From Nitratireductor aquimarinus (GTDB lineage Bacteria > Pseudomonadota > Alphaproteobacteria > Rhizobiales > Rhizobiaceae): 64,000 nucleotides of DNA. Both the position numbers and the translations under genes were made by a program. The stretch is from NCBI RefSeq assembly GCF_017255295.1, contig NZ_JAFKDE010000015.1, forward strand, positions 1 to 64,000, in the 5' to 3' direction. Below are positions 1 through 16,283 of the stretch, piece by piece (positions within the stretch are counted from its first letter, which is position 1; every line of letters starts with the position of its first letter). The notes under the pieces are model-generated. The model saw only the letters and a program-made list of their open reading frames with translations, was not told the origin of the DNA and ran no database searches.

Positions 1-54
1 ATGCTCCTTCAAGATGCCAATGATCTGTTCTTCTGAGAACCGTGACCGTTTCAT
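1..54 (-). CDS. IS3-family transposase OrfA, N-terminal 18 residues (partial)
   Basis: The minus-strand frame starts at 54 and reads MKRSRFSEEQIIGILKEH, the familiar start of IS3-family OrfA proteins, where a helix-turn-helix region binds the IS ends. A GGAGAC ribosome site lies 5 nt upstream. Only the first 18 codons are in the window. In this family OrfA is usually fused by programmed frameshifting to the OrfB integrase domain, but that part is not visible here. Confidence 0.85.
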   Translation of the reverse strand, partial: MKRSRFSEEQIIGILKEH

Positions 55-119
55 TGCCTGTCTCCTTCGTTGAGGAACAGGCTAACCCAAAATCGGGAAC
101 ATCTCAGGGGAGCAGGTCA
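1..119 (-). mobile_element. End of an IS3-family insertion sequence (runs off the window)
   Basis: Read on the minus strand, the segment starts with a TGACCTGCTCCCC-type terminal sequence at 119, has a short leader with a GGAGAC ribosome site, and then opens a transposase OrfA typical of IS3 elements. The outer end at 119 abruptly interrupts the integrase frame that comes from 256, which fixes the junction. The other end and most of the element lie outside the window, so the IS group and any target duplication cannot be determined. Confidence 0.75.
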
Positions 120-256
120 CCCGCTTTCAAGGAAAGCCTGCGCCTCTTTGCGTGTAGCAAAGCTCTTGTAGGCGTATCCGGACTTGGTTGACCTGTCGGA
201 ATAGCGAACTTGATAGGTGGTGCCTTTGGCCCCTTTTCTTTTTCTAATATCGGACA
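119..256 (-). pseudogene. Tyrosine integrase, N-terminal fragment truncated by IS insertion
   Basis: The minus-strand frame from ATG at 256 encodes about 46 residues, beginning MSDIRKRKGAKGTTYQVRY and continuing with a YAYKSFATRKEAQAF segment. This matches the arm-type DNA-binding N-terminus of phage or ICE tyrosine integrases: a basic start, a TYQVRY strand, and a K-F-x-T-x-K-E-A-x-x-F helix. The frame hits a TGA made by the terminal bases of the IS at 117-119. The catalytic domain is therefore separated or lost, and the product should be inactive. It is not a copy of the integrase at 1259-2377. Confidence 0.75.
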
Positions 257-301
257 TTCGAATATTATTGTATTATATATTACAGAACACAAAGTATTAA
301 T

Positions 302-526
302 TCAGTTTTTCTCAGCTTCTATATGCAACTCGCGATATATGCGCACAAGCGTACCGCGCTCTATTTTCAGACGCCCTTCAATCGGATCGACGAAGAATGG
401 CAATTTACGTTTGCCGTGAGCGTCCTTGTCGGCAGCGCGCTTCATCTGCCGTTCGCTGAGGTCAACGCCCATTTCTGAGAGCAATGCGCGGGCTTCGTTC
501 AGGTCGATGTAACAAGGTAGCTTCAT
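302..526 (-). CDS. Small protein of the left element, possibly an excisionase-like DNA-binding protein
   Basis: 74 residues from ATG 526, with AGGAGG placed 5 nt upstream; an in-frame TTG at 529 is too close to that site. It lies 9 nt after the stop of the 536-814 gene and just before the truncated integrase, so the three genes look co-transcribed. The segment SERQMKRAADKDAHGKRKLP, followed by F-F-V-D-P-x-x-G-R-L, resembles the recognition helix and wing of small MerR/excisionase-like folds. That reading is inference; I do not recognise a named family. Confidence 0.6.
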   Translation of the reverse strand: MKLPCYIDLNEARALLSEMGVDLSERQMKRAADKDAHGKRKLPFFVDPIEGRLKIERGTLVRIYRELHIEAEKN

Positions 527-535
527 CAAGGCCTC

Positions 536-814
536 CTATAGATCGTAGTCTTTGCAGGCTGGCCGATAATGGTGGGTGTCGAGATAATGCACGCTGCCTC
601 CGGTTGGACGGATCACGTTCAGCTGCTCGCCATATTCGTTGGTGGCGATGATTTTGAGGCGTGAGCCGCGCACATACTGGATATTGTAAATGTCGCGAAG
701 CGCGTGAACGTCTTCGAGAACCGCATGCGCCAGCTCTTGAATGCTGATTGTTCCTAACGCAGCATAGTTCACAGTAAGGCCGTGCAGACCGAATGTATTT
801 TTCCCTTTGCTCAT
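536..814 (-). CDS. Hypothetical protein of the left element
   Basis: 92 residues starting MSKGKNTFGLHGLTVNY at ATG 814, with a strong GGAGGTAGGA ribosome site directly upstream. The frame is open further upstream to 1006, but that extension lacks a ribosome site and runs into the promoter area of the divergent HTH gene, so I use the short form. There is no signal peptide or membrane segment. The middle (ISIQELAHAVLEDVHALRD) is likely helical. Function is not recognisable; it is probably element-specific cargo or a control protein. Confidence 0.6.
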   Translation of the reverse strand: MSKGKNTFGLHGLTVNYAALGTISIQELAHAVLEDVHALRDIYNIQYVRGSRLKIIATNEYGEQLNVIRPTGGSVHYLDTHHYRPACKDYDL

Positions 815-977
815 TCCTACCTCCAAGCGAAGCGGCACCCCTCTCTCCATAATACAACTAATAGTTGTATATACATACGGATGTATTCTAAGGGCGCAGG
901 CGGTGACCAATGCGTGCTCACGCCCTTCTCGGCGTCTGCTGCGATGCTGCGCGCAGCACTCAGCGAAAGCCGACGTC

Positions 978-1262
978 ATGGAATTACGAACGAAACTGCT
1001 ATTCACCTACGAGGAAGCGGCTGCCGCACTCGCAATGTCGCGGGCGGCCCTGCGCGATCTCGTCTACAAAGGGCGTGGCCCAATCGTAACGAAGATCGGT
1101 CGCAGAACGTTCTTCGCGCTGAGTGACCTCGAAGCCTTCGTCACCAAACACCGGGTTCTAACGGGACCGGTTATTGAACACCACGTCGAACGGTCGCGCC
1201 GCAAGCGTGGCCGCCCGACTATCGCTGAAATGATGCAATCCCAATCCGTTGTCCTGCACTAG
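978..1262 (+). CDS. HTH (excisionase/AlpA-like) DNA-binding protein
   Basis: 94 residues. Residues 10-55 (FTYEEAAAALAMSRAALRDL, then a turn, then G-R-R-T-F-F-A-L-S-D-L-E-A-F) form the HTH_17 fold used by excisionases and AlpA-type regulators. The basic tail includes RSRRKRGRP. It is divergent from the 536-814 operon and convergent with the integrase, overlapping the integrase stop by 4 nt. This arrangement suits an excisionase or a control protein of the element. The start at 978 has only a weak ribosome site, so a slightly longer N-terminus is possible. Confidence 0.7.
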   Translation: MELRTKLLFTYEEAAAALAMSRAALRDLVYKGRGPIVTKIGRRTFFALSDLEAFVTKHRVLTGPVIEHHVERSRRKRGRPTIAEMMQSQSVVLH

Positions 1263-2377
1263 CCCGATTGCGCTGCCTGTGCCACTTTCCCTGCGCCACC
1301 GAGCTTGGCGAGTTCGTCGGCAAGATGCTCGGTGGTCAGGTTAGCGTAGCGCTTAACCGACTTCGGGTCCTTATGCCCCGTCTGGGCCATCACCTGAACC
1401 ATCGACCAACCTGCCTCGAATAGGCTCGATGTGCGCTCGTGCCGGGCGTCGTGAAGCCGGAAGTGCGGAACACCGGCGCGCTCCCGTGCCCGGTTGAATG
1501 CAAGGCGGAGGGCATTCGCTGTGATTGGGAACACCCGGTCGTTGTCATTGGCTGCGCCGCTCATGCTACGGAGCTGGTCAAAAACCTCCACGGCGCGGGG
1601 CGATAAGGCAACCGGATGGTCAATGACCGTTTGGGGGGGGCGGCTGTTCTTGACCCCGCGCAAGAGTGCTCTGCGAGCCGCGATGTCCACGTCCTTCCAT
1701 TCAAGCCGCAGCAGATTGCCGCGCCGCGCGCCTGTCTCGAATGCTAACTCCACAAACGGCCGGAGCCACTTGACACGGGAGTTAGCGCAGGCGTCGAGAA
1801 AGCGCTCGATCTCCTGTGGTGACAACCTGATATCACGCTCGTCGTTGACGGCCGGACGCTTCACGTCGTCAGTGTTGACCGGATTGACCAAAATGCCGAG
1901 ACGGCGCTTGCGGTAATCGATCACGCGCTTGATGAGTGTGAGTTCGCGGCGAACGGTTCCCGGCGCTATTGTTTTGGGCGGCTTGCTCGACTTCTTGCCC
2001 CTGCTCACGGTCTGTCTCAGGCGACGATCACGATAGGCTTCAAAATGCTCCGGCGTCAGGTTTGCGACGGCATAGGAGCACAACTCCTTTTCCTCCCGCA
2101 GAAGGCGCTTAAGGCGTGCACGTTCCGCAACGCGGGAGTCTTCTCCAGGGCGCTGGGCCGTGACCTCCCGCAGGTAGATTTCAATGAGATCGGCCAGCGT
2201 CGTGCTTTGCGCGGCGCTCTGGTCGATGAACTGGCCCCGGTCCATTTCGGACTCGACCTTTCGTGCCCAGGCCTGCGCGTCCTTCTTGGTTCGGAAGGTT
2301 GCGCTCTGGTTCGGCCAGCCTTTGCGCCGGATTTGTACCGCCCACTGGTAAGGGCCTTTTTCGCGGATACTCGCCAT
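1259..2377 (-). CDS. Site-specific tyrosine recombinase (integrase) of the tRNA-Arg element
   Basis: 372 residues. The N-terminal 50 residues resemble an arm-binding domain ([16 protein letters not shown]), residues 55-165 a core-binding SAM-like domain, and 185-355 the catalytic domain. Visible catalytic residues are Arg in TGARRG (about 218), His309 and Arg312 in HDARH, His335 in TGHKD and the nucleophile Tyr344 in KRYANL. HDARH replaces the commoner HDLRH, but His and Arg are kept. The gene starts 112 nt from the 3' end of tRNA-Arg, the usual place for an integrase that uses the tRNA 3' end as attachment site. It appears intact. Confidence 0.92.
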
Positions 2378-2488
2378 CTGGATCGCTCCCGTGCTGTGAC
2401 GGGTGTGCCAAATGTGTGCCAGAAAATCGTGAGCACGGTCTGGTCACGCCAGACGCATCATGCAAAATATTGATTTTCATGGGGTTTT

Positions 2489-2565
<77 letters not shown>

Positions 2566-2868
2566 TGGCCGTGGCGGAGGCGGCGAAGCGCCAGCGCGTC
2601 GCTTTCATAGCCGAAGCATTCGCATGCATCAACGATGAAATGAATGTTCCGGCAATCCGATTGAAAAGTCGGGGCAGGGCGCGTGGATTTTCTCAATCCG
2701 CGTGGGACGGGCTGACCGACAGTCGTTTCCTCGATGCAGGAAGCAGTGTCAGCATTCCTGTTCGGGCGTTTGAGCGTTGACCAAGAAACGGAAGCCGGTT
2801 TTCGGGCATTCCGGTGTCCGGTTGATCGTTCAACTTGCCCTTGGCGCGCCCAAACGGACGGTGGCGAT
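2566..2868. other. Intergenic, no gene recognised
   Basis: About 300 bp between the tRNA-Arg 5' end and the GntR gene stop. It must contain the tRNA promoter near 2570-2620. I see no convincing coding frame, hairpin terminator or repeat; the open frames here are antisense extensions from neighbours. Confidence 0.5.
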
Positions 2869-3573
2869 CTAGCGCTCGGCCTGTTCCATCATCATGAAGT
2901 CAACCAGCCGGTCGGGGTCGCAGATGTGGCGGCGCATTTCGGTGGCTGCGCGGGCGCCGTCGCCGGCCTCGATTGCTTCGAGGATCACCGCATGCTCGTT
3001 ATGCGACTGGCGCATGCGGTCGAGACGGCGCAGAAGCCAGCGGCGGTAGGGGGCGAGCTTGGTGCGAAGCCCCTCCAGCTGCTCCAGCAGATAGGGATTG
3101 CCCGCGCCTCGATAGATAGCCTGGTGGAACTGGAAGTTCAGCCGGTCGAAACCATCCCGGTCGCCGGCATCCACGATGGCCGCCGTTTCCTCGTGTATGG
3201 AGCGCAGCTGCTCGATCTGCTGCTGGTTCATGCGCCGCGCCGCGCATTCGGCGGCGAAGGATTCGAGCCCGGACAAAACCTCGAACATCTGCGCCAGGTT
3301 CTGCGCCGTGAGCGAGCGCACGATGGCGCTGCGGCGCGGGCGAAGCTCGATCAGACGCTCCACGCCAAGCCTGCGCAGCGCTTCGCGGATCGGCGTGCGC
3401 GACACGCCAAAACGCTCCGCAAGCCGGCGCTCGTCCAGCTCGTCGCCCGGCCTGATAACGCCGTCGATGATTTCCTGTTCAAGTTGCCGCGCCAGCCCCT
3501 CGGCCAGCGGCTTGTCGTCGGAAACAGTCCTGTGCCTTGCCGTCACCTTGCACCCGCCACCTTGCACCCGCAT
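2869..3573 (-). CDS. GntR-family (FadR/FCD type) transcriptional regulator
   Basis: 234 residues. A winged HTH occupies about residues 20-85 (ERRLAERFGVSRTPIREALR, the GntR signature) and an all-helical FCD ligand domain about 95-225. The FCD metal or ligand site is suggested by NFQFHQAI, HNEHAVILEAI and a late MRRHI. It is divergent from the TRAP operon with 140 bp between, and a good palindrome lies near the operon promoter. Regulators of this type usually repress nearby carboxylate catabolism genes and release DNA on binding the substrate. A GTG at 3546 is an alternative start. The ligand is unknown. Confidence 0.88.
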   Translation of the reverse strand: MRVQGGGCKVTARHRTVSDDKPLAEGLARQLEQEIIDGVIRPGDELDERRLAERFGVSRTPIREALRRLGVERLIELRPRRSAIVRSLTAQNLAQMFEVLSGLESFAAECAARRMNQQQIEQLRSIHEETAAIVDAGDRDGFDRLNFQFHQAIYRGAGNPYLLEQLEGLRTKLAPYRRWLLRRLDRMRQSHNEHAVILEAIEAGDGARAATEMRRHICDPDRLVDFMMMEQAER

Positions 3574-3643: not shown

Positions 3644-3644
3644 T

Positions 3645-3668
3645 TGGTATACCAGATTTAATATCTGG
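3645..3668 (+). promoter_or_regulatory. Candidate GntR operator (overlapping palindromes)
   Basis: TGGTATACCA at 3645-3654 is a perfect 10 bp palindrome of the TGGTNNACCA type typical for FCD-class GntR regulators. It overlaps a second inverted repeat, CCAGAT-N5-ATCTGG, at 3652-3668. Both lie at or just after the predicted transcription start of the TRAP operon, which would suit repression by the divergent GntR protein. Confidence 0.55.
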
Positions 3669-3713
3669 TGTTCAAATGGGAGCGAGAGCCGGGAAACCGG
3701 CGGGAGGAGATTT

Positions 3714-4703
3714 ATGAACAGATTCATGGCGGCAGCGCTTGCCTGCGCCGCTTCGGTCATCGCCGTGGAGGCGGCGTCGGCCGAAACCGTTCTGCGGCTC
3801 AGCCATTCCTACACCGATGGCGACACACGCGATCTGTGGGCCGATCGAATCGCCGAAATCGTGGCCGAGAAGACCGGTGGCGAGGTGAAGGTCGAGGTCT
3901 ATCCCAACCAGCAGCTCGGCAAGGCGCGGGCGCAGGCCGATTTCGTGGCGCGCGACCGGATCGATATGGCGATCTACCCGCTGCCCTGGCTCTCGGGAAA
4001 AGTGCCGATGGCGGAAATCGGCGCACTTCCGGGCCTCGTCGCTTCCCCGCAGGACGGGCTGGTGTGGCGCGAGCGGGCGATCTGGCCGATGCTGGAGGAG
4101 GCAGTGTCGGAAGCAGGTCTGGTGTTCGCCGGCGGTGGCTGGGCCATGGGCACGATCGGCAACAAGGGCGAGGCAATCGTCCTGCCCGAGGATCTGAAGG
4201 GCCACAAGGTGAGGGGACTTGGCAAGGCCACCGAGATCATGATGAACGGCTATGGCGCGACGATTACATCGCTGCCAGCGTCCGAAATCTACCAGTCGCT
4301 GCAGACCGGTGTTCTGAGCGGGGTGCTGACGATCTATGCGTCCTTTGAAGGGTACAATCTGCAGGAGGTGATCGATCACCTGATGGTCGGGCCGGGTTTT
4401 GTGGGCGCGATGCATTCGGTGCTTCTGTCGCCGGGCGTGGAAGAAAAGATCGGCGAGGCGCATTACGCAGCCCTTCTTGAGGCGATTGCCGAATCCGAGG
4501 CCTGGTTCGCCGACCAGACAATCGCGGACAACAGGCAGATTGCCGATGCCTTCCGGGAGGCCGGTGTCAGCGTGCACGAGCTCACGGAAGAGCAGGTGGC
4601 GCAGTGGCATGATGCGGCGCGTGAGCACGCCTGGGCCTATTTCCGGGAAAGCGTGCCCAATGGCGATGCCGTTCTGAAGGCGGTGGACCAGCCGCGGCAA
4701 TGA
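3714..4703 (+). CDS. TRAP transporter substrate-binding protein (DctP family)
   Basis: 329 residues with a Sec signal peptide of about 23 residues ending in an ASA cleavage motif before ETVLRLSHSY. The mature protein has the DctP fold pattern, including the start of the first lobe, the region IAEIVAEKTGGEVKVEVYPN, and a late Gly-rich segment. It would bind a carboxylate in the periplasm and hand it to the DctQ and DctM membrane proteins encoded next. A GGAGGAG ribosome site precedes ATG 3714. Its stop overlaps the dctQ start by 4 nt. The substrate cannot be read from the sequence; neighbouring enzymes suggest a malonate-like or hydroxy acid. Confidence 0.9.
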   Translation: MNRFMAAALACAASVIAVEAASAETVLRLSHSYTDGDTRDLWADRIAEIVAEKTGGEVKVEVYPNQQLGKARAQADFVARDRIDMAIYPLPWLSGKVPMAEIGALPGLVASPQDGLVWRERAIWPMLEEAVSEAGLVFAGGGWAMGTIGNKGEAIVLPEDLKGHKVRGLGKATEIMMNGYGATITSLPASEIYQSLQTGVLSGVLTIYASFEGYNLQEVIDHLMVGPGFVGAMHSVLLSPGVEEKIGEAHYAALLEAIAESEAWFADQTIADNRQIADAFREAGVSVHELTEEQVAQWHDAAREHAWAYFRESVPNGDAVLKAVDQPRQ

Positions 4704-5296
4704 ACGCGCTCGATGAAGCAAAGTCAGATTATGGCGGTGCGCCCGAAGGGGCGCCCGCAGCGCAGTCGCCGTTCCTGAAGCTGCTTTTCAGGGTGCGTGC
4801 AGTGCTGCACCGCGTGTCGGCCGCCGCAGCCATGGTGTCGGCGGTCGGCGTCGTGGTGGCGTCCGTGGTCATTACCTGGGCCGTGTTTGCGCGCGGCCTG
4901 CTTGGCGTCAACACGATCTGGGAGCTGGAATTCAGCGTCTACCTCCTGATCTATGCGGCCTTCCTGTCGGCGGCCTTTACCGATCGCAGCGGCGGTCAGA
5001 TCAGCGTCCAGATTCTTGCCGGATATCTGAAGGGCCGCGCCGCGCGGGCGCACACCGCCCTGCTTGAGTTCCTGGCGCTCTGTCTTTTCGTGCTGGTCAC
5101 CTATTCCGGCTGGAACATGTTTCTCCATTCCTGGGAAACCGGCTGGCGCTCGGAAACCCTGTGGGGGCCGCCGCTCTGGGTGCCGCATCTGGCGATCCCG
5201 CTCGGCGGAACGCTTCTGGTCATGTCGCTGGCAGTGGATCTGACGATCCGGCTGTGCGGCGGGCGGCTTGATGTGCCGCAGGGAGGGCATCACTGA
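4700..5296 (+). CDS. TRAP transporter small permease (DctQ family)
   Basis: 198 residues with four predicted membrane helices at about 45-65, 75-95, 115-135 and 155-175. DctQ proteins pair with the large permease and are needed for Na+-driven uptake. The N-terminal 35 residues are cytosolic and poorly conserved. The start overlaps dctP (ATGA), and the stop overlaps the dctM start by 1 nt, so translation is coupled. Confidence 0.88.
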   Translation: MNALDEAKSDYGGAPEGAPAAQSPFLKLLFRVRAVLHRVSAAAAMVSAVGVVVASVVITWAVFARGLLGVNTIWELEFSVYLLIYAAFLSAAFTDRSGGQISVQILAGYLKGRAARAHTALLEFLALCLFVLVTYSGWNMFLHSWETGWRSETLWGPPLWVPHLAIPLGGTLLVMSLAVDLTIRLCGGRLDVPQGGHH

Positions 5297-6624
5297 TGGA
5301 TCCGGTCACGCTTGCCTTCGTATCGGTTGGCATTCTTCTTCTTCTCATTCTGGCAGGGCTGCCCATCGGCTATGCGCTGCTGGGCGCGATGGTGGCCTCT
5401 TCCGTTATGGTGGGGGAGCCGCGGGAACTGCTCTACATCGCGGAAACGGCCTTCCAGTCGCTCGATTCCATCGAGCTGGTGGCATTGCCCATGTTCATCT
5501 TCATGGGCGCGGTGGTGGCGGTCAGTCCGGCCGGCGCGGATATCTATTCCGCCCTGAGCAGGCTTCTGCCCGTGCCGGGCGGTCTTGGCATGTCGACCAT
5601 TGCCGGCTGCGCCATGTTCTCGGCCATTTCCGGGTCGTCACCGGCCACGGTGGCGGCGATGGGCTCGTCGGGCGTGCCGGAAATGCTGGCGCGGCGTTAT
5701 CCGCCGGGGCTCGCCTGCGGCATCGTCGTCGGTGGTGGAACGCTGGGCATCCTCATCCCGCCATCCATCGTGCTTCTGCTTTATGGCGTGGTGACGAAAA
5801 CCTCCATTGGTCAGCTCTTTCTTGCCGGCATTCTGCCGGGGCTGATGCTGGTGGCGCTGTTCTCGCTCTACACCTGGTTCGTCATGTGGCGGCACCTGAA
5901 GCGGCTGACGCCCGGGCAGCGCGCAGAATTCGAAGCACTGGGCGCAGAGCGCGCGGCGAATGGCGGGAATGGCAGCTTTGGGCGTGTCATTCCGTTCTTC
6001 GCGCTGATGGCCGGCATCATGCTGGCGCTCTATGGCGGCTGGGCCACGCCTTCCGAAATCGCCGCCGTGGGGGCCACCGCCTCCATCCTCCTGGTTCTGG
6101 TGATCTACCGGATCACGAGCTGGTCGGTATGGCGCGAGCTTTTGCTCAAGACGGTGCAGGACACGTCGATGATCCTCATCATCGCCGCCTTCGCCTACAC
6201 GTTCTCGCAGTTTCTCGCCTTCCACGATGTCGTTTCCGCGATCACCAGCCTGCTGGTCGATGCGTTCGACAATCGCTGGGTGACGCTGTTTGCCCTGTGG
6301 TGCGTGATGCTGGTTCTGGGCTGCTTCCTGCCGCCCTTTGCCATCGTCGTGATCGTGGCGCCCATGTTCCTGCCCTTCGTGCTCAGCGCCGGTTTCGACC
6401 CGGTCTGGTTCGGCGTCTTCGTGACCCTGAACATGGAGATGGGCTGCATCACACCGCCTCTGGGCATCAATCTGTTCGTGGTCAAGGCCATCGCCCGCAA
6501 GGTCGACATGCGCGAGATCATGATGGGTTCGCTGCCCTTCCTGGCGATCCTGGGCATCGGCACGCTGCTGATCACCCTGTTTCCAGAGATCGTCCTTTTC
6601 CTACCTTCGCAGATGATGAGATAA
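5296..6624 (+). CDS. TRAP transporter large permease (DctM family)
   Basis: 442 residues, about 12 membrane helices, the usual DctM length. It is the transport channel that couples substrate entry to sodium. Family-typical stretches are the FIFMGAVVAVSP region, the GSSPATVAAMGSSGVPEML segment, and GCITPPLGINLFV near the C-terminus. Third gene of the operon, 1 nt overlap with dctQ and 2 nt before the next gene. Together with the binding protein it forms a complete TRAP system. Confidence 0.93.
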   Translation: MDPVTLAFVSVGILLLLILAGLPIGYALLGAMVASSVMVGEPRELLYIAETAFQSLDSIELVALPMFIFMGAVVAVSPAGADIYSALSRLLPVPGGLGMSTIAGCAMFSAISGSSPATVAAMGSSGVPEMLARRYPPGLACGIVVGGGTLGILIPPSIVLLLYGVVTKTSIGQLFLAGILPGLMLVALFSLYTWFVMWRHLKRLTPGQRAEFEALGAERAANGGNGSFGRVIPFFALMAGIMLALYGGWATPSEIAAVGATASILLVLVIYRITSWSVWRELLLKTVQDTSMILIIAAFAYTFSQFLAFHDVVSAITSLLVDAFDNRWVTLFALWCVMLVLGCFLPPFAIVVIVAPMFLPFVLSAGFDPVWFGVFVTLNMEMGCITPPLGINLFVVKAIARKVDMREIMMGSLPFLAILGIGTLLITLFPEIVLFLPSQMMR

Positions 6625-6626
6625 CC

Positions 6627-7805
6627 ATGTTGCAGTCGCCTTCGGCACAAGCGCGCGCCATCACGCGCATCCAGAGCTACGCTCTCAACATACCAGCCGA
6701 GATCACGGCGGCGGGCGTGACCCGCAGTCTCGATCTCTCCGCCGTGGTCTGTACGGTGGAAACCGCCGATGGCCATGTGGGGCACGGATTTACCGCCATC
6801 ACCGAGGAACGCACCGTCGCCGAGGCCATTCGCGAAGTGGCGGCGCCCGCGCTGGAGGGCATGGACCCGCTGGCGATGGAGGCGATCTGGGAAAAGCTCT
6901 TCTGGCTCATGAGCCCGCGCGGCCAGACTGGCTATGCAGCGCATGCGATCTCCGCCGTCGACACGGCGCTGTGGGATCTGAAGGGAAAGATCCTCGGCCA
7001 GCCAGTGTGGCGGCTTCTGGGCGGCGCGCGCCGGGACGTGCCGGTCTATGTGACCTGCGGCTTCAATTTCCTCAGCATCGACCAGCTGGTGCAATCGGCG
7101 CAGTTCTGGGTGGATGCCGGCTTCAAGCGTCTCAAGATGACGGTGGCGCCCGAGGCGACCCGCCGCCGCGATGTGGTCGACGTTGCCGAAATGATTGCGG
7201 AGGATGCGCGCCGGGTGGCCGCAGTGCGTGAGGCGGTCGGGCCGGAAGTGCAGCTTTTCATCGACGCAAACTGCAATCTCGATCCGCACAGCGCGTTCAA
7301 ACTGGCGCAGGCGGTTGCGCCCTACAGGGTCGACTTCTTCGAGGAGCCGCTTTTGAAAAACGACATCGGCTGGCTTGCGGATCTGCGCCGGCGCTGCCCG
7401 GTGCCGCTGGCAGGCGGGCAGAATGAAGGGCTTTCCTACCGTTTCCGCGATCTGCTGGTCGAGAAATGCGTCGACGTTTTGCAGCCGAATGTGGTGATCG
7501 GCGGTGGTTTTACGCAGGCCCAGAAAATCGCGGCGATGGCCGACGCCTTCGCAACGCCCATCGCCAATGGCGGCGGCTGGCCGTTCCACAATGCGCATCT
7601 GCATGCCGGTGTGTCGAATGGCGGGCTGGTCGAGTATCACGTGCCGGCGGTCAATGTGTGCGAGAAGATCTTCACCGGGCTACAGAAGCCGGAACGCGGC
7701 AGGATGAGCCTTTCAGAACGCCCGGGCCTCGGCTTCGATCTGAACATGGAGGCAGTCGAGGCGTTCGCTGCGAGACCGTCGGCTGCCGGTCATGGCAAGG
7801 GGTGA
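6627..7805 (+). CDS. Mandelate racemase/muconate lactonizing (enolase superfamily) enzyme, atypical active site
   Basis: 392 residues. Capping domain about 10-135 and barrel about 140-370. Superfamily landmarks are present: AISAVDTALWDLKGK (about 108-121), Asp213 in FIDAN and Glu239/240 in FFEEP. Two canonical positions look changed. The KxK base motif reads KMT (170-172), and the GGEN third metal ligand reads GGQN (263-266). The C-terminal side is His-rich (WPFHNAHLH). The enzyme would act on the alpha-carbon of a carboxylate (racemisation, dehydration or cycloisomerisation), but these changes argue against assigning a known activity. It begins 2 nt after dctM and is followed at once by the decarboxylase-like gene. 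Confidence 0.85.
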   Translation: MLQSPSAQARAITRIQSYALNIPAEITAAGVTRSLDLSAVVCTVETADGHVGHGFTAITEERTVAEAIREVAAPALEGMDPLAMEAIWEKLFWLMSPRGQTGYAAHAISAVDTALWDLKGKILGQPVWRLLGGARRDVPVYVTCGFNFLSIDQLVQSAQFWVDAGFKRLKMTVAPEATRRRDVVDVAEMIAEDARRVAAVREAVGPEVQLFIDANCNLDPHSAFKLAQAVAPYRVDFFEEPLLKNDIGWLADLRRRCPVPLAGGQNEGLSYRFRDLLVEKCVDVLQPNVVIGGGFTQAQKIAAMADAFATPIANGGGWPFHNAHLHAGVSNGGLVEYHVPAVNVCEKIFTGLQKPERGRMSLSERPGLGFDLNMEAVEAFAARPSAAGHGKG

Positions 7806-7809
7806 GGGG

Positions 7810-8523
7810 ATGGGCGGCAAACCGGTAATCGGCATGATCGTTCCACCGGCGGCGGGCGCTGTGCCGCCGGAACCGCTGGCGCTTTATGCGGGACGGGCTG
7901 AATTCATCGCCGAGGGGCTGGCGCTGAAGGCGCTCTCGCCGGAAGGCTATGATGCGGTGATCGAGCGGGTGGAGGAATTGTCCGCGCGTCTGGCGGAGCG
8001 GGGCGCGCAGGCAATTTCGCTGATGGGCACATCGCTGAGCTTTTATCGTGGCGCTGCATTCAATGCGGAGCTGATCGCGACGATGGAGAAAGCGTCGGGA
8101 TTGCCCGCAACAACGATGACCGACAGCGTGCTCGAAGCGCTTGCGGCCCTTGGCGTGCGCCGGCTCGCGGTGGCGACTGCCTATCGCAGCGCCGTCAATG
8201 ACCGCCTGAAGGCCTATCTGGAGGCCGCCGGATTCGAGGTGACGGTTCTGCGCTCACTCGACATCGAGGATGTGGACGCGATTGCATCCGTGACCAGTGA
8301 AACGCTGATCGATCTGGGAGCGGAAACCTGCCGGGCTGCGAAAGACGCAGAGGCGCTCTTCATTTCATGTGGCGGTCTGCAAACGCTTCCGGTGACGGAG
8401 CCGATCGAGCAGCGTTGTGGCCTGCCGGTCGTCTCGAGCGCTCTGGCCGGGGCCTGGGGCGCGATGGGGCTTCTTGGCCTTGACCGGCGCGCCGACGGGG
8501 CCGGGCGTCTGTTCCAGACCTAG
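7810..8523 (+). CDS. Arylmalonate decarboxylase-like enzyme (Asp/Glu racemase superfamily)
   Basis: 237 residues. The sequence follows the known bacterial arylmalonate decarboxylase (AMDase) closely: IGMIVPPAAG near the start, MGTSLSFYRGAAFNA at 72-86, TAY at 123-125 and SCGGL at 186-190. The dioxyanion-hole residues (Gly73, Thr74, Ser75, Tyr125) and the single catalytic Cys187 fall one position from those of the characterised enzyme. Glutamate or aspartate racemases carry two Cys; AMDase lacks the first, as here. It would decarboxylate a disubstituted malonate without cofactor. Start chosen at ATG 7810, after GAGGGG; ATG 7792 is possible. Last gene of the operon, before a terminator. The natural substrate is unknown. 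Confidence 0.85.
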   Translation: MGGKPVIGMIVPPAAGAVPPEPLALYAGRAEFIAEGLALKALSPEGYDAVIERVEELSARLAERGAQAISLMGTSLSFYRGAAFNAELIATMEKASGLPATTMTDSVLEALAALGVRRLAVATAYRSAVNDRLKAYLEAAGFEVTVLRSLDIEDVDAIASVTSETLIDLGAETCRAAKDAEALFISCGGLQTLPVTEPIEQRCGLPVVSSALAGAWGAMGLLGLDRRADGAGRLFQT

Positions 8524-8539
8524 CCTGTCGCAGAAACGA

Positions 8540-8574
8540 AAACCGCCCGCGAGGCTCGACCACGCGGGCGGTTT
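8540..8574. terminator. Bidirectional terminator between the TRAP operon and metC
   Basis: A 12 bp perfect stem AAACCGCCCGCG (8540-8551) pairs with CGCGGGCGGTTT (8563-8574) across an 11 nt loop. It sits between two convergent genes, so it probably serves both strands. Confidence 0.8.
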
Positions 8575-8609
8575 GCAGTCTGAAAAGGCCTGTGCCCAGG
8601 GTCCTGTCT

Positions 8610-9782
8610 CTAGAGTGCGTTCACCGCTTCAAGGGCGCGGGCGAGGTCGGCCTGCAGGTCCTCGACATCCTCGAGCCCGATTTGCAGGCGCATGACCGGG
8701 CCTTCCTTGGGCGCATGCGCCACGGTGCGGTCGTTGAGCTGCACATGCACGGCGAGGCTCTCATAGCCGCCCCAGGAATAGCCGAGACCGAAATATTGCA
8801 GCGCGTCGAGGAAGGCATGGGCTTCCTTCTCGCCCCCGCCATCGAGCACGATGGAGAAGAGGCCGCTCGCGCCGGTGAAGTCGCGCTTCCAGATTTCATG
8901 GCCCGGATGCGATTCGAGGCCCGGATGCAGCACGCGCGCCACGCCTTTCTGGCCTTCCAGCCAGCGGGCGAGCGTGAGCGCGCTTTTCTGGTGGCGTTCA
9001 AGGCGCACGCCCATGGTGCGCAGGCCGCGCAGCACCTGATAGACATCGTCGGGCGCAGCACACATGCCGAGCGCTCCATGCGTGTCCAGAAGCTGCTCCC
9101 AACAGGCTTCATTGGCCGAAACCGTGCCGAGCAAAATGTCCGAATGGCCGCCCGGATATTTGGTCGCTGCCTGGATCGAGATATCGACACCGTGATCGAG
9201 CGGACGGAAGAAGAGGGGGGTGGCCCAGGTGTTGTCCATCATGACGATGGCGCCGCCCTTGTGCGCAGCCTCGACGATTGCCGGGATGTCCTGCATCTCG
9301 AACGTGCCGGAGCCGGGCGCTTCCGTCAGAACCACCTTGGTGTTCGACTGCATGACCGAAGTGATGTCGGCCCCCAGATGCGGATCGTAATAGGTGACCT
9401 CCACGCCAAGCCGCGCCAGCATCGTGTCGGCGAAATAGCGGGTCGGGTGATAGACCGAATCGACAATCAGCACATGGTCGCCCGCCGAAAGGAAGGCGAG
9501 CATGGGCACCGTTACGGCCGCAAGCCCCGTGGGGACGATGACGGTTCCGGCAGATCCTTCAAGCTCGTTCATGGCCGCTGCAAGCGCGTCGCTCGTCGGG
9601 GTGCCGCGGGTTCCATAGGTGTATTTCTGGTTCCGCGTCGCCATGGTGTGTGCGTCGGGGAAGAGCACGGTGGAGGCGTGCACCACCGGCGGATTGACGA
9701 AGCCGTGGAAGTCGCGCGGATTGTTGCCCATATGGGCAAGGCGCGTGTTGTCTCCGACTTTAGTATTAGTCTTGTCGTTCAT
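8610..9782 (-). CDS. metC: Cystathionine beta-lyase
   Basis: 390 residues, Cys/Met-metabolism PLP enzyme. The internal aldimine lysine is in ATKYPGGHSD, and the cofactor Asp in MMDNTWATP. The Y-x-R segment YTYGTRGTP near residue 55 is typical of this family's tetramer-shared phosphate site. It would cleave cystathionine to homocysteine, pyruvate and ammonia for methionine synthesis. It is divergent from aapJ; this metC-aap neighbourhood is known from Rhizobium leguminosarum, which supports both names. Other C-S lyase activity cannot be excluded. Confidence 0.9.
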   Translation of the reverse strand: MNDKTNTKVGDNTRLAHMGNNPRDFHGFVNPPVVHASTVLFPDAHTMATRNQKYTYGTRGTPTSDALAAAMNELEGSAGTVIVPTGLAAVTVPMLAFLSAGDHVLIVDSVYHPTRYFADTMLARLGVEVTYYDPHLGADITSVMQSNTKVVLTEAPGSGTFEMQDIPAIVEAAHKGGAIVMMDNTWATPLFFRPLDHGVDISIQAATKYPGGHSDILLGTVSANEACWEQLLDTHGALGMCAAPDDVYQVLRGLRTMGVRLERHQKSALTLARWLEGQKGVARVLHPGLESHPGHEIWKRDFTGASGLFSIVLDGGGEKEAHAFLDALQYFGLGYSWGGYESLAVHVQLNDRTVAHAPKEGPVMRLQIGLEDVEDLQADLARALEAVNAL

Positions 9783-10129
9783 GGAACCCTGTCGCTTGAT
9801 TGTCTGCGGCGCTTGCCGGAAGGCCAGGAGCGTTGAAATGCGCCGGAAAAGGCGGGCGGATGGAACGCGATTGTGCGCTGCACGTCAACCGCAAACGGGC
9901 GTCTCCTTTGCTTCTGGAACAAGCCTCTTTCACACTTGACCCAAAAGAATTTATCGCATTCGATGGCTGCAGTGCGTGGGAGAGGAAGCGCGTGTCCGTT
10001 CGCCTTTTGGGTATTGAAGCTCCACTTCTGGAGTATGCTGCCCGAAGAGCCCGGTGGTCGGCATTCGCCTGCTTCCGCACTGAAAAGTGTCAGGGGATAA
10101 GCCCAAAAACAGAAAAAGGGTTCTGAATC
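9783..10129. other. metC-aapJ divergent intergenic region
   Basis: 347 bp between two divergent starts, so both promoters must lie here. TTGACC at 9936-9941 with TTCGAT 17 nt later is a weak candidate for aapJ. A short near-palindrome around GAAGCTCCACTTC (about 10016-10028) is present. I found no convincing sigma-54 site, although aap genes are nitrogen-controlled in rhizobia. No gene is seen. Confidence 0.4.
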
Positions 10130-11158
10130 ATGAAGAAATTAGTCAAAGCGTTGCTCGGCTCTGCCGTGGTCGCAGTCATGGCCGCGCCGGCTTCTGCCGC
10201 TACGCTCGACGATATCAAGGCGAAGGGCCATGTGCAGTGCGGTGTGAACACCGGTCTGATCGGCTTCAGCGCGCCCGATGATGATGGCAACTGGACCGGC
10301 CTCGATGTCGATTTCTGCCGTGCGCTGGCTGCGGCCATCTTCGACGATCCGGACGCCGTTCAGTTCTCGCCGCTCTCCGCAAAGGACCGTTTCACCGCGC
10401 TCCAGTCGGGTGAGGTGGACGTTCTTTCGCGCAACACGACCTGGACCATCAGCCGCGACACCGCGCTGGGTCTCAACTTTGCCGGCGTCACCTATTATGA
10501 CGGCCAGGGTTTCATGGTGAACGCCAAGAACCTGCCCGACATCAAGTCCGCGCTGCAGCTTTCCGGCGCGACGGTCTGCGTGCAGGCCGGTACCACGACG
10601 GAGCTGAACCTCGCCGACTACTTCAAGGCCAACAACATGGAATACAATCCTGTTGTGTTCGAGAAGTTCGAAGAGGTGAATTCGGCCTATGACGCAGGGC
10701 GCTGCGACGTCTACACGACCGACCAGTCGGGCCTCTATGCCGTGCGCCTGAACCTGGCCAGCCCGGGTGATCACATCGTGCTTCCGGAGATCATCTCCAA
10801 GGAGCCGCTTGGCCCGGCAGTGCGCCATGGCGACGATCAGTGGCTCGATATCGTCAAGTGGACCTATTACGCGCTCGTCAATGCTGAAGAGCTGGGCGTG
10901 AACAAGGACAATCTCGAAGAGAAGATGCAGTCCGACAATCCGGAACTGCGTCGTCTTCTGGGCACCGAAGAAGGTGGCAAGCTCGGCACGGATCTCGGCC
11001 TGACGAACGACTTCGCTGTCCGGATCGTCAAGCATGTCGGCAACTATGGCGACATCTTCGAGCGCAATGTTGGTGCGGAAAGCCCGCTCAAGATTTCGCG
11101 CGGCATCAACGCCCTTTGGACCAAGGGTGGCCTCCAGTACGGCATGCCGATCCGCTGA
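10130..11158 (+). CDS. aapJ: General L-amino acid ABC transporter, periplasmic binding protein
   Basis: 342 residues with a Sec signal peptide of about 23 residues (cleavage after ASA). The mature part is the solute-binding family 3 fold; landmarks are GHVQCGVNTGLIGFSAPD and RFTALQSGEVDVLSRNTTWT. Length and motifs match AapJ of Rhizobium leguminosarum, which binds many L-amino acids. The permease and ATPase genes follow in order. A stable stem-loop lies in the gap to aapQ, which usually gives higher expression of the binding protein than of the membrane parts. Confidence 0.94.
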   Translation: MKKLVKALLGSAVVAVMAAPASAATLDDIKAKGHVQCGVNTGLIGFSAPDDDGNWTGLDVDFCRALAAAIFDDPDAVQFSPLSAKDRFTALQSGEVDVLSRNTTWTISRDTALGLNFAGVTYYDGQGFMVNAKNLPDIKSALQLSGATVCVQAGTTTELNLADYFKANNMEYNPVVFEKFEEVNSAYDAGRCDVYTTDQSGLYAVRLNLASPGDHIVLPEIISKEPLGPAVRHGDDQWLDIVKWTYYALVNAEELGVNKDNLEEKMQSDNPELRRLLGTEEGGKLGTDLGLTNDFAVRIVKHVGNYGDIFERNVGAESPLKISRGINALWTKGGLQYGMPIR

Positions 11159-11187
11159 TCGCAGATCGGATTCCGTCAACATAATGC

Positions 11188-11215
11188 GTGAAAGGCGGTA
11201 CGCACCGCCTTTCAC
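11188..11215 (+). promoter_or_regulatory. Intercistronic stem-loop between aapJ and aapQ
   Basis: A perfect 12 bp stem GTGAAAGGCGGT / ACCGCCTTTCAC with a 4 nt loop (11200-11203) stands 20 nt before the aapQ ATG. No T-tract follows, so it more likely stabilises the aapJ message or partly attenuates transcription than ends it. Such hairpins are common after binding-protein genes of ABC operons. Confidence 0.65.
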
Positions 11216-11235
11216 CATTCCTGGTGAGGATAGCC

Positions 11236-12426
11236 ATGGCCACCCAGCACTCAACTGCGGAGGGCGCGGCGCCTCGTGTGCCGCTGCTCTATGATCCGCG
11301 CGTTCGAGGAATTGCCTATCAAGTCCTGGTGTTCGTAGGCCTGTTTGCCCTGGTCTACTGGATCGTCGGCAACACGACAGCCAATCTTCAACGCGCCAAC
11401 ATCGCTTCCGGTTTCGATTTCCTCAAGGGACGCGCCGGCTTCGATATCGGCGACAGCCTGATCGAGTATTCATCCGATTCCACTTATGGCCGCGCGCTGT
11501 TCGTCGGCTTTCTCAACACGCTGCGTGTTGCGATTGTGGGCATCATTACAGCGACCGTGATCGGTTTCATCATCGGTATCGGACGTCTTTCGAAAAACTG
11601 GCTGATCAACCGGATCTGCCTCGTCTATGTCGAGGTTTTCCGCAACATTCCGCCGCTTCTCGTCATCTTCTTCTGGTATTTTGGCGTTCTTTCGGTGCTG
11701 CCGCTGCCGCGTGAGAGCATCGACCTGCCGCTCGGATCCTACATCAACGCACGTGGTCTCTTCGTGCCTGCCTTCCAGTGGGGGCCGGGCGCATGGCTCG
11801 TTCTTGTGGCTTTTGCGGTGGCGCTTGTCTTCGTCTTCTTCGTGCGTCGCTGGGCACACAAGAAGCAGATGGCGACCGGCGAACAGTTTCCGGTGTTCTG
11901 GACGAGTGTCGGCCTGATCATCGGGCTTCCGGCGCTGGCGTTCATCGTCACCGGTTTCCCGCTGAGCTTCGAGTTCCCCCAGCTGTCGACCTTCAATCTG
12001 CGTGGCGGCATGCAGATAAGGCCTGAGTTCCTGTCACTCTATCTGGCGCTGTCGTTCTACACCGCGGCTTTCATTGCGGAGATCGTGCGCGCCGGTGTGG
12101 TCGGCGTGAACCGGGGGCAAAGCGAGGCGTCGCATGCGCTGGGCCTGCGCTCGGGCCAGACAATGCGGCTGGTCATCATTCCGCAGGCGCTGAGGATCAT
12201 CATCCCGCCGCTCACGAGCCAGTATCTCAACCTGACGAAGAACTCTTCGCTGGCGGTGGCCATCGGCTATCCGGATCTGGTTGCAACGGGCGGCACCACG
12301 CTCAACCAGACAGGTCAGGCCATCGAGGTCGTCGCGATCTGGCTGATTGTCTATCTCGGGCTCAGTCTGGGAACGGCAGGTCTGATGAACTGGTACAATG
12401 CGCGCATGGCGCTGGTGGAGCGGTAA
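11236..12426 (+). CDS. aapQ: General L-amino acid ABC transporter permease AapQ
   Basis: 396 residues from ATG 11236, preceded by GGTGAGGAT; an upstream in-frame ATG at 11188 lies inside the hairpin and is rejected. It is a HisM-type permease with a long insertion between the first membrane helices and the core, as in AapQ. The EAA loop that contacts the ATPase is around residues 295-325 ([20 protein letters not shown], then PQALR). The gene ends 1 nt before aapM starts. AapQ and AapM form the heterodimeric channel. Confidence 0.93.
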
Positions 12427-12427
12427 G

Positions 12428-13585
12428 ATGCAAGAACACGATCTTTCCTTCGTCCGCGCCGAAATGGTCGCGAACCAGCCACCCCCCGCCTCCAATCAGG
12501 GGGTGGGCTCGTGGCTGCGCAAGAACCTGTTCGCCAACCCCGTTGACACGATTTTCACGCTCATCGGCATCATCCTGGTCCTGTTGATCGTGCCACCGAT
12601 CATCCAGTGGGCGTTCATCAACGCACAATGGACGGGTTCGGACCGTTCCGTCTGCGCCACGGTGGCGCAGGGCGGCGTCCAGCCGGATGGCTGGAAGGGG
12701 GCCTGCTGGGCGTTTGTCGACGCCAAGTTCAAGCAGTTCATGTTTGGCCGCTATCCGGTGGATGAGCGCTGGCGCGTTTATCTGACGGGCGCGATCTTCA
12801 TCTCGCTCCTGACGCCCCTTCTGCTTCCCAGCGTGCCGCGCAAGGGGCTGAATGCGCTGCTGCTTTTCGTGGCGTTCCCGATTGTGGGCTTCTTCCTGCT
12901 TTCGGGCGGCATCTTCGGGCTGACGCCCGTGCCGACGCCGCTGTGGGGCGGGCTTCTGGTGACGTTGGTGCTGGCCTATGTGGGCATCGCCGTTTCCTTC
13001 CCGCTCGGCATTCTGCTGGCGCTCGGGCGACGGTCGAAAATGCCGGTGGTGAAGCTTGTCTGCGTGGTCTTCATCGAGACCATTCGCGGCGTGCCGCTGA
13101 TCACCATCCTGTTCATGGCGAGTGTCATGCTGCCGCTCTTCCTGCCGCCGGGCACCTCGTTCGACAAGCTGCTTCGCGCACTGGTCGGCGTGGCGCTGTT
13201 TGCTTCCGCCTATATGGCCGAGGTGATCCGCGGTGGCCTGCAGGCAATCCCGAAAGGGCAGTATGAAGGTGCGGATGCGCTGGGTCTCAGCTTCTGGAAG
13301 AAGATGAACCTCGTCGTTCTTCCACAGGCGATCAAGCTGGTCATTCCCGGCATCGTCAACACGTTCATCGGCCTGTTCAAGGATACGAGCCTGGTCTACA
13401 TCATCGGCATGTTCGACCTTCTGGGGGCGGTGCGTCAGAACTTCTCGGATGCGAACTGGGCGTCGCCCCAGACGCCGATTACCGGTCTGGTATTTGCCGG
13501 TTTCGTGTTCTGGCTGTTCTGCTTCGGCATGTCGCGCTACTCTATCTTTATGGAACGCCGGCTCGATACCGGTCACAAACGCTAG
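12428..13585 (+). CDS. aapM: General L-amino acid ABC transporter permease AapM
   Basis: 385 residues from ATG 12428. An earlier in-frame ATG would overlap aapQ and lacks a ribosome site. It is a HisM-type permease with about eight membrane helices, and the EAA loop around [20 protein letters not shown] matches the family. The N-terminal cytosolic region is Pro-rich ([10 protein letters not shown]), as in other AapM proteins. It is followed by a mosaic palindromic repeat before aapP, which separates the ATPase gene from the permease genes by 132 bp. Confidence 0.93.
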
Positions 13586-13588
13586 AGA

Positions 13589-13687
13589 GCAATTCCGGGA
13601 AAAGCGGGAACCGGTTTCCCGTCCGGAATTGCGCAAGGACCAATAAATTGGAGCGTTTTCGCGATTCAATAAAAAGCGGAAACGCTC
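13589..13687. repeat. Mosaic intergenic palindromic repeat between aapM and aapP
   Basis: Two adjacent palindromes: GCAATTCCGG (13589-13598) with CCGGAATTGC (13623-13632), and GAGCGTTTTC (13651-13660) with GAAACGCTC (13679-13687). The inner GGGAAAAGCGGGAACCGG style is typical of short dispersed repeats in Rhizobiales genomes. It lies inside the aap operon and could form mRNA hairpins that shift expression between the permeases and the ATPase. Confidence 0.65.
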
Positions 13688-13717
13688 TGGGCCGAGAGCC
13701 AAGGGGAATTGAACAAA

Positions 13718-14521
13718 ATGGCATCAGAAAACGCCGTTAAAGCAGACGAGCTCCATGCTGACCGGAGCAAGATGCAGATCTCCGATACCGACGTCGCAAT
13801 CGATATTGTGGGCATGCACAAATGGTATGGCGATTTCCACGTTCTCAAGGACATCAATCTGCGCGTGATGCGCGGTGAGCGCATCGTCGTGTGCGGTCCT
13901 TCGGGGTCTGGCAAGTCGACCATGATCCGCTGCATCAACCGTCTGGAGGAGCATCAGAAGGGCAAGATCGTCGTGGACGGGATCGAGCTCACCAACGATC
14001 TGAAAAAGATCGATGAGGTGCGGCGCGAAGTCGGCATGGTGTTCCAGCACTTCAACCTGTTTCCGCATCTGACCATTCTGGAAAACTGCACGCTCGCCCC
14101 GATCTGGGTGCGCAAGACGCCCAAAAAAGAGGCCGAGGCGACCGCGATGCACTTTCTGGAGCGGGTCAAGATCCCTGAACAGGCGAACAAGTATCCGGGC
14201 CAGCTTTCGGGCGGCCAGCAGCAGCGCGTGGCGATTGCCCGCGCGCTGTGCATGAACCCGCGCATCATGCTGTTCGATGAGCCGACCTCAGCACTTGATC
14301 CCGAGATGATCAAGGAGGTGCTCGACACCATGGTTGATCTCGCCGAAGAAGGCATGACGATGATCTGCGTGACCCACGAAATGGGCTTTGCCCGTCAGGT
14401 GGCGAACCGCGTGATCTTCATGGATCAGGGGCAGATCGTCGAGCAGAACACCCCGGCGGAGTTCTTCGACAACCCGCAGCACGAGCGCACAAAACTGTTC
14501 CTGTCGCAGATCCTGCACTGA
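13718..14521 (+). CDS. aapP: General L-amino acid ABC transporter ATP-binding protein
   Basis: 267 residues from ATG 13718 (TTG 13709 is an alternative). Walker A is GPSGSGKST, the signature [15 protein letters not shown], Walker B IMLFDEP, followed by the SALDPEM D-loop and the switch His in CVTHEMGF. The length and the N-terminal extension before IVGMHKWYG match AapP. It energises the AapQM channel. It is separated from aapM by a palindromic repeat but is probably transcribed with it, and is followed by a good terminator. Confidence 0.94.
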
Positions 14522-14546
14522 CCGCAGGCGCTCCGGCGCAGACACC

Positions 14547-14580
14547 AAACGCCGCGTTTCCTCACGGGAGCGCGGCGTTT
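14547..14580. terminator. Terminator after aapP
   Basis: Stem AAACGCCGCG (14547-14556) pairs perfectly with CGCGGCGTTT (14571-14580) across 14 nt, followed by TTGCATTTTG. It lies between convergent genes, so it may also serve the monooxygenase. Confidence 0.75.
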
Positions 14581-14636
14581 TGCATTTTGGGGGATGAACC
14601 GGGAAGAGAGCGGCGGGCAGGGGCTGTCAGCCCGCC

Positions 14637-15857: not shown

Positions 15858-15872
15858 CGGCCTGCGGGCCGA

Positions 15873-16115: not shown

Positions 16116-16197
16116 CATCTTCTCCCGCTTGGAATGCGTTGGAAAGTCGCTTGCGTTTGTAGCATAAACTGCGTCTTTGCAAGCCTCTGATATGAAA

Positions 16198-16217: not shown

Positions 16218-16283
16218 GAGGTACACTGGGCCACCAGTAGACAACGGCCCGTGCTGTGGAAATCAAGGGGCGCAGGCAGGATC

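Follow-up and report, generated by a model that had tools for sequence, protein, structure and literature searches.

Arylmalonate decarboxylases (AMDases) are valued biocatalysts, and the cited parts of PMC4996985 and PMC4517146 state that their natural substrate was not identified at the time. According to the cited passages of Maimanakos et al., 2016 (PMC4996985), 61% of amd loci contain genes of the mandelate racemase/muconate lactonizing enzyme (MR/MLE) family, and TTT (tricarboxylate-type), TRAP or ABC transporters lie beside amd. They propose substrate uptake by these transporters and name Nitratireductor pacificus pht-3B as having two amd genes. A passage of a 2018 review (PMC5812351) also mentions that amd is associated with TRAP and MR/MLE genes. 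Here we describe an amd locus in a 64,000 nt stretch of Nitratireductor aquimarinus DNA (NZ_JAFKDE010000015.1, positions 1-64,000), hereafter the window. We tentatively read it as a locally regulated operon for uptake and decarboxylation, of the known AMDase-TRAP kind, with an α-hydroxy aryl- or alkenylmalonate as the most likely substrate. Two observations bear on this substrate: the residues of the MR/MLE partner are not those of a mandelate racemase, and 2-hydroxyacid oxidase genes recur near AMDase genes.

The locus consists of the following genes:

2869..3573, minus strand: GntR-family (FCD) transcriptional regulator, divergent from the operon (Pfam GntR 67 bits, FCD 113 bits)
3714..4703, plus strand: dctP, TRAP solute-binding protein (Pfam DctP 120 bits)
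4700..5296, plus strand: dctQ, TRAP small membrane subunit (Pfam DctQ 74 bits)
5296..6624, plus strand: dctM, TRAP large membrane subunit (Pfam DctM 278 bits; NCBIfam TIGR00786 307.2 bits, cut-off 268.45)
6627..7805, plus strand: enolase-superfamily (MR/MLE) protein whose active-site residues are non-canonical (Pfam MR_MLE_N and MR_MLE_C, the latter 168 bits)
7810..8523, plus strand: AMDase (Pfam Amdase 342 bits; NCBIfam NF052327)

From dctP to the AMDase gene, neighbors are separated by a 4-nt overlap, a 1-nt overlap, a 2-nt gap and a 4-nt gap. The last value holds for a start at 7810; an alternative in-frame ATG at 7792 would give a 14-nt overlap with the MR/MLE gene. DctP, DctQ and DctM, which together form a TRAP transporter, were all identified by Pfam. 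The transporter lies beside amd as in the TRAP-type clusters of PMC4996985, in which, in the passages cited, MR/MLE is common and not required. The original prediction, made from the window alone, had described five tightly packed genes and a divergent GntR gene, and its coordinates and spacing were all reproduced. Its view that they form a single operon with a carboxylate-type transporter is supported.

Family and residues indicate that the last protein of the operon is a genuine AMDase. It scores 340.9 bits against the NCBIfam equivalog NF052327 (cut-off 225) and matches the AMDase of Bordetella bronchiseptica (PDB 3dtv) nearly end to end (phmmer E 3.6e-64, residues 9-242). In Bordetella numbering it keeps P14, P15, L40, Y48, G74, T75, S76, Y126, V156, C188 and G189. 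It differs from the Bordetella enzyme (PDB 3dtv, 2vlb, 3ip8) by Leu at V43, Ile at M159 and LFISCGGL in place of ILLSCGGL. Identical or similar residues are found for all 12 sequence criteria in Table 4 of Maimanakos et al., 2016, as given in the part cited: 11 of 13 single positions are identical, V43L and M159I are similar, and LMGTSLSF is identical. Gly74 is the AMDase-type residue, which stands in place of the racemase Cys. In L002, a distant homologue encoded elsewhere in the same genome, both catalytic places are Cys, as in racemases. The original prediction had placed the oxyanion residues and the catalytic Cys correctly; Cys188, T75, S76, Y126, G189 and Gly74 are all present. It had also held that loss of the Cys in homologues would speak against it, and no such loss was found. 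Among 25 aligned homologues, G74, T75, S76 and Y126 are present in 25/25, and C188 and G189 in the 24/24 that reach them; the remaining one, the truncated L095, ends before Cys188. Variation is seen at position 48, which is Phe in six (L089-L094), and at position 15, which is Arg in L080.

Genomes with a match to the AMDase model over its cut-off numbered 3/10 in the genus, 5/397 in the order, 2/385 in the class, 2/398 in the phylum and 11/299 in the family of G1088, each tally counting its center genome and the samples overlapping. In a collection of named genomes, the closest of 23 loci by AMDase identity is that of Nitratireductor sp. pb3 (93%), followed by that of N. pacificus pht-3B (78%) and by two from Achromobacter (54% and 55%). 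The original prediction had suggested a search for the same gene order in other genomes. The order is identical in the window, pb3 (L035) and N. pacificus pht-3B (L036), and the GntR gene is at the same place in both relatives (96% and 87% identical).

Codon-scored gene maps were made for 22 AMDase loci (the window, L033-L038, L074-L079, L081, L086, L087 and L089-L094). L033, L034, L037 and L038 were counted by motif and similarity rather than by cut-off score, and the L075 map extends just 1.6 kb on one side of the AMDase gene. Outside this count are L080, with an AMDase below cut-off and a deviating motif, the contig fragments L088 and L095, and short copies of counted loci (L001, L003-L007, L058-L073 where a longer stretch was used, and L129). 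The weaker homologues L008-L032, L039-L057 (19 of the 23), four of the five Aminobacter plasmid records (H1-H3 and H5) and the weaker plasmid matches were left unmapped. Of the 22 loci, 14 carry an MR/MLE gene of the subfamily seen in the window (48-96% identity): the window, L034, L035, L036, L074, L079, L081, L086, L087 and L090-L094. This share is close to the 61% of amd loci given in the cited part of PMC4996985. The other 8/22 are the ABC-type loci L033, L076 and L078, the Achromobacter loci L037 and L038, and L075, L077 and L089. A canonical MR/MLE gene found 4.7 kb away in L077 does not belong to the subfamily. Since the gene order recurs in two relatives and the AMDase-MR/MLE pair in 11 further loci, the arrangement is not due to chance.

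The pairing is kept across different transporters. TRAP genes accompany it in the window, L035 and L036, and TctC and TctA in L034, L074 and L079. In the parts mapped of L081, L086, L087 and L090-L094, TctC is present and TctA is not. Protein distances of AMDase and MR/MLE are correlated (r 0.898, n=14; r 0.867, n=10 with near-identical loci dropped; 0/10000 permutations reached either value), and this correlation includes a contribution of common species history, which was not removed.

Further gene content differs among these loci. In the three related genomes with L081, L086 and L087, MmgE/PrpD-family and acyl-CoA dehydrogenase genes face the AMDase gene, and a further TctC gene and an AMP-ligase gene are near. 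In an N. pacificus region (L122, G399:C7:84000-102000), TTT and TRAP modules stand next to each other, together with two MR/MLE genes, and a single AMDase gene lies downstream of them. N. pacificus has a second, ABC-type AMDase locus (L078) on another contig. In L036, a hydantoinase-A-like gene lies 72 nt downstream of the AMDase gene (8832-10829), where the window has a convergent gene.

The MR/MLE partner has the MR_MLE domains and, as predicted, the barrel fold of the MR subgroup of the enolase superfamily. A model predicted from 13 sequences has a mean pLDDT of 86.3 and aligns with 2ovl_A at Z 45.5 (rmsd 2.2, 350 residues aligned). In the profile search of solved structures, alignment A1 gave no match at E 1e-60, and alignment A2 gave 116 at 1e-20 (best 2.6e-55). 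Residues compared with mandelate racemase are given in its numbering, from a sequence identical to PDB 1mdr. In mandelate racemase, His297 is paired with Asp270. In muconate lactonizing enzymes, the second Lys of a KxK motif is catalytic, and the sixth strand bears another Lys. Mandelate racemase transfers protons through Lys166 and His297, and its Glu247 is a metal ligand (PMC9835602, in the passage cited). The window protein has K164, T166, D195, N197, E221, Q247, N270, G297 and E317, position 297 being a gap in another alignment. It thus has T, N, Q and G at the positions of Lys166, Asp270, Glu247 and His297. The muconate lactonizing enzyme pattern is likewise absent: the motif reads K-M-T and the sixth-strand position is N288, as judged from an alignment with no MLE sequence in it.

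The same pattern is found across the AMDase-linked partners. All 14 keep K164, D195, N197, E221 and E317; position 166 is Thr or Val, 247 is Gln, 270 is Asn, and none has His297. Two rows from the window's own genome (L082 and L084) were wrong ORFs and were left out of this comparison. Judged by these residues, the AMDase partner cannot be called a mandelate racemase: K166, E247, D270 and H297 are all replaced in 14/14. Compared with the Pseudomonas putida enzyme (PDB 1mdr), the fold is alike (Z ~42) and K164, D195, N197, E221 and E317 are common, whereas these four residues differ and identity over the fold alignment is 22-23%.

The altered pattern marks a clade. A search of 249 genomes of the order (E <=1e-60) gave 22 MR/MLE matches with a clean split. 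Twelve are altered (L100-L111, L100 being the window and L101 being L074): residue 166 is Thr, Val or Leu, 247 is Gln, 270 is Asn and 297 is Gly or Ala. The other 10 (L112-L121) are canonical, with Lys/Arg, Glu, Asp and His, respectively. A tree was built from 43 rows, 41 of them different. It groups the altered set in a single clade of 31 rows (support 100/100), and the AMDase-linked proteins fall within one subclade of 19 rows (support 100/97), which also holds the second N. pacificus MR/MLE protein, L096 and L102; the tree has a midpoint root only, and long branches were flagged, mandelate racemase above all. R98, N245, Q265, N288 and H338 are kept in 14/14 linked, 9/9 other and 5/5 distant clade members and in 0/11 canonical proteins, the groups having been picked by hand. 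H321 and H326 are present in 14/14 linked proteins, 2/9 others (L096 and L102), 0/5 distant members and 0/11 canonical proteins.

That the two bases are lost is more certain than that a metal ligand is. Glu267 lies two residues past Gln265, does not vary among the 15 proteins of the A1 alignment and could act as a metal ligand, although L098 has Asn there. 3msy and other solved proteins also align Gln at the Gln265 position. The near-invariance of Glu267 and this shared Gln are why the ligand loss is held less firmly. Much of the carboxylate- and metal-binding frame is retained. Arg98 and His338 would suit a polycarboxylate; that H338, H321 or R98 faces the substrate is suggested by sequence position alone.

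Nine relatives of the enolase clade without an AMDase gene were mapped, L107-L111 not being among them. Seven of the nine lie beside TTT genes (L097-L099, L124-L127) and two do not (L096, L102). L126 additionally has malate/lactate-dehydrogenase-family, DHDPS-family and aldehyde dehydrogenase genes. In Burkholderia arboris (L096, 663-9176), the altered MR/MLE gene follows IlvD, cystathionine-beta-lyase-like, luciferase-like, glutamate-cysteine-ligase and BenE genes, and no AMDase gene is found in that stretch.

FMN-dependent 2-hydroxyacid oxidase genes are found near the AMDase gene in 5/22 loci (L034, L074, L092, L093 and L094). The oxidase gene adjoins the MR/MLE gene in L034 and L074 and the AMDase gene in L093 and L094; in L092 it is two genes past the MR/MLE gene. 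Pfam FMN_dh was confirmed in L074, L092 and L093, and the L034 oxidase is annotated as such. An extended cluster in N. pacificus has the order MarR-oxidase-MR/MLE, TctCBA, GntR, DctPQM-MR/MLE-AMDase, with the oxidase ~9 kb upstream of the AMDase gene; a single TGA at the C-terminal end of its match is the stop of a 378-aa frame. The SNHGGR motif is present in 6/6 oxidases. Seven genomes contain 15 full-length oxidase genes, ~0.4 per Mb, which gives a chance of ~0.008 per 19-kb locus; this is a rough figure that assumes 24 loci, the genomes being all AMDase-bearing, five of them with a linked oxidase itself, and the loci non-independent. L034 also has an aldehyde dehydrogenase and a thiamine diphosphate (ThDP) enzyme that scores 643.6 bits on the equivalog 'thiamine pyrophosphate-requiring protein'; taken with its oxidase, these two enzymes are reminiscent of the mandelate pathway. 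IOR-alpha-like and POR-domain genes are further neighbors in L093. In the genome of the window, the sole full-length FMN oxidase gene lies in a region (L128, C8:175000-190000) with an RraA-like aldolase, a 2-hydroxyacid dehydrogenase, hydantoinase A/B, TRAP and TTT genes.

Two further features flank the operon:

3644..3669, no strand assigned: putative GntR operator, TTGGTATACCA with the overlapping inverted repeat ACCAGAT-N5-ATCTGGT, between the GntR gene and dctP
8540..8574, no strand assigned: GC-rich hairpin between convergent genes, a possible terminator without a long T-run, from the fold of 8524-8609

TTGGTATACCA occurs once in the window and in 0 of 100 shuffles. The putative operator upstream of dctP is kept in the three Nitratireductor loci: both arms are changed in N. 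pacificus with symmetry retained, and only one arm differs in pb3. With up to one mismatch, the pattern gave one site per genome in the three genomes, each at this operon, and none in the reversed control; the search of these genomes gave no further regulon members. This single conserved site per genome supports local control of the operon by the divergent GntR through the predicted operator. The fold of 8524-8609 has an energy of -38.8 kcal/mol (z -2.91), and 2/200 shuffles were equally or more stable. Scans for T-run terminators and sigma-70 promoters gave none. Directly upstream of the locus, a tyrosine integrase gene (1259-2377, minus strand) abuts tRNA-Arg(ccg) (2489-2565, minus strand). 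A mobile element may have inserted into this tRNA gene in the N. aquimarinus strain, since the mapped parts of L035, L036 and L129 contain no match to the integrase; no direct repeat of the tRNA end that would form an element border was found in window positions 1-2700.

For DctP, the closest solved relative by sequence is 4mco/4mev (E 4.1e-46), whose bound ligand is probably malonate. The DctP model predicted from three sequences was of no use for inferring a ligand (mean pLDDT 39.6).

These observations suggest the following pathway. GntR would repress transcription from the operator just upstream of dctP, the site being indicated by its conservation, until the substrate or product releases it. 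DctPQM would import a small (poly)carboxylate, probably an α-substituted malonate or a precursor of one. By analogy with its family, the AMDase would remove one carboxylate, with Cys188 protonating the enediolate to give an (R)-acid; the wild-type AMDases known so far yield the (R)-product, as stated in the cited part of PMC4996985. The small substituent of AMDase substrates is H, CH3, Cl, Br, OH or NH2, and the large one needs a π system (PMC12576825, passage cited). α-Hydroxymalonates are converted to α-hydroxyacids, and alkenylmalonates are substrates (PMC4517146, passages cited). Because oxidase genes recur in some of the loci and AMDases have published activity on α-hydroxymalonates, an α-hydroxy-α-(aryl or alkenyl)malonate is favored as the natural substrate, without proof; it would yield an (R)-2-hydroxyacid. 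In the sister clusters, the oxidase and the 2-oxoacid enzymes may take this product onward as in the mandelate pathway. The enolase-fold partner would take either the imported (poly)carboxylate or the 2-hydroxyacid product as its substrate. As it has neither of the two classic proton-transfer residues, it would use other bases, for which His338, His321 and His326 are candidates, or reach an enediolate by another route.

A number of observations weigh against this pathway. The window operon has no adjoining oxidase gene, and the one full-length FMN_dh gene of the genome sits in another cluster. In the stretch first mapped, 17/22 loci have no oxidase, N. pacificus among them. The L034 ThDP gene scores 146 bits on the benzoylformate decarboxylase model, below its cut-off, and the L093 IOR-alpha-like gene is below the IOR cut-off. 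FMN oxidases of this family usually act on (S)-hydroxyacids, so that an (R)-product would be expected to undergo inversion by a racemase first; the partner, the obvious candidate, does not have the racemase bases. L096 and L102 are members of the AMDase-linked subclade with no AMDase gene in the stretch seen (the L102 contig is 5 kb). The content of L077 fits other substrates: beside AMDase and TRAP genes, it has an IlvD-type dehydratase gene and one that resembles 3-hydroxyisobutyrate dehydrogenase. Its genes form one run (9990-17139) of TRAP genes, a gene for a 204-aa protein with no Pfam match at 1e-8, the dehydratase, the dehydrogenase-like gene and AMDase; folate genes then follow. Finally, Variovorax HH01 was enriched and isolated on phenylmalonate, in which the α carbon bears H and not OH (PMC4996985, passage cited).

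Tropate-like compounds may offer a different route, in which a 3-hydroxy-2-arylpropionate is oxidized to an arylmalonate. The natural substrate would then be an α-H or α-alkyl arylmalonate such as phenylmalonate, AMDase would form an arylacetate or arylpropionate, and the oxidase neighbors would be incidental. The AMDase of Variovorax HH01 is active on the phenylmalonate used for its isolation (PMC4996985, passage cited), the L077 gene that directly adjoins AMDase resembles 3-hydroxyisobutyrate dehydrogenase or tartronate-semialdehyde reductase, and in Aminobacter L033 a gene of the 4-hydroxyphenylacetate hydroxylase family is second beyond the ABC genes, on the opposite strand. We nevertheless regard this route as rather unlikely, because it explains neither the oxidase beside AMDase or MR/MLE in five loci nor the enolase-fold partner. 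The partner could instead act upstream, for example as a dehydratase that converts an imported hydroxy-tricarboxylate or dihydroxyacid into an alkenylmalonate for AMDase to decarboxylate. The TTT genes beside 7/9 of the mapped clade relatives without AMDase, the IlvD/EDD dehydratase in the L077 gene run, the alkenylmalonate activity of AMDase (PMC4517146, passage cited) and the polycarboxylate that the invariant Arg98 and His338 would suit are all consistent with such a step. Even a dehydratase with this fold requires a base, however, both mandelate racemase proton-transfer residues are gone, and the oxidase neighbors point to 2-hydroxyacids after decarboxylation; upstream action is about as doubtful as the tropate-like route. 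For the same reasons, the original prediction that the enolase-like enzyme prepares the substrate is not supported: the canonical acid/base residues are gone, and the oxidase linked in some sister loci points to 2-hydroxyacid chemistry after decarboxylation.

Two readings are less probable still. The partner may represent an unrecognized enolase-superfamily clade that acts on polycarboxylates without the Lys/His bases customary in the family, with Gln in the third metal-ligand place, Asn in place of the dyad Asp, Arg98 and His338 as new residues and His321/His326 in its AMDase-linked branch, in a reaction new to the superfamily that would define the natural AMDase pathway, its substrate possibly being the malonate or the AMDase-made 2-hydroxyacid; we consider this full claim improbable. 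It is very unlikely that AMDase activity is a side reaction and that the physiological substrate of the operon is not a malonate. That no natural substrate was identified in the cited parts of PMC4996985 and PMC4517146 would fit a side reaction, whereas the constancy of Gly74, Thr75, Ser76 and Tyr126 (25/25) and of Cys188 and Gly189 (24/24 reaching them) argues against it, in contrast to the distant homologue of the same genome with Cys at both places. Decarboxylation of an α-hydroxy aryl- or alkenylmalonate thus stays our preferred, tentative reading.

Compared with known systems, the locus is a further case of the AMDase-TRAP cluster kind. AMDase, TRAP and MR/MLE genes are common to it and to the amd clusters TRAP-I and TRAP-II of PMC4996985, which may already show this very locus type. 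The pathway idea is not new, because the amd-transporter-MR/MLE association and the uptake proposal are in the cited passages of that paper. The malonate-type substrate of the original prediction accordingly stands as a working idea, not as an original one. Maimanakos et al. label the partner mandelate racemase/muconate lactonizing enzyme, and the passages cited treat neither its active site nor a 2-hydroxyacid oxidase. The titles, abstract beginnings and passages listed in searches of open-licence papers likewise contain no description of the active site of an AMDase-linked MR/MLE protein and no link between AMDase and a 2-hydroxyacid oxidase. What is new here is the non-racemase residue pattern of the partner and the recurring oxidase neighbors. 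The residues correct the automatic annotation of the AMDase partner; together with the oxidase recurrence, they narrow the set of testable substrates. Relative to the described AMDase-TRAP clusters, the altered enolase partner thus offers a fresh handle on the natural role of AMDases.

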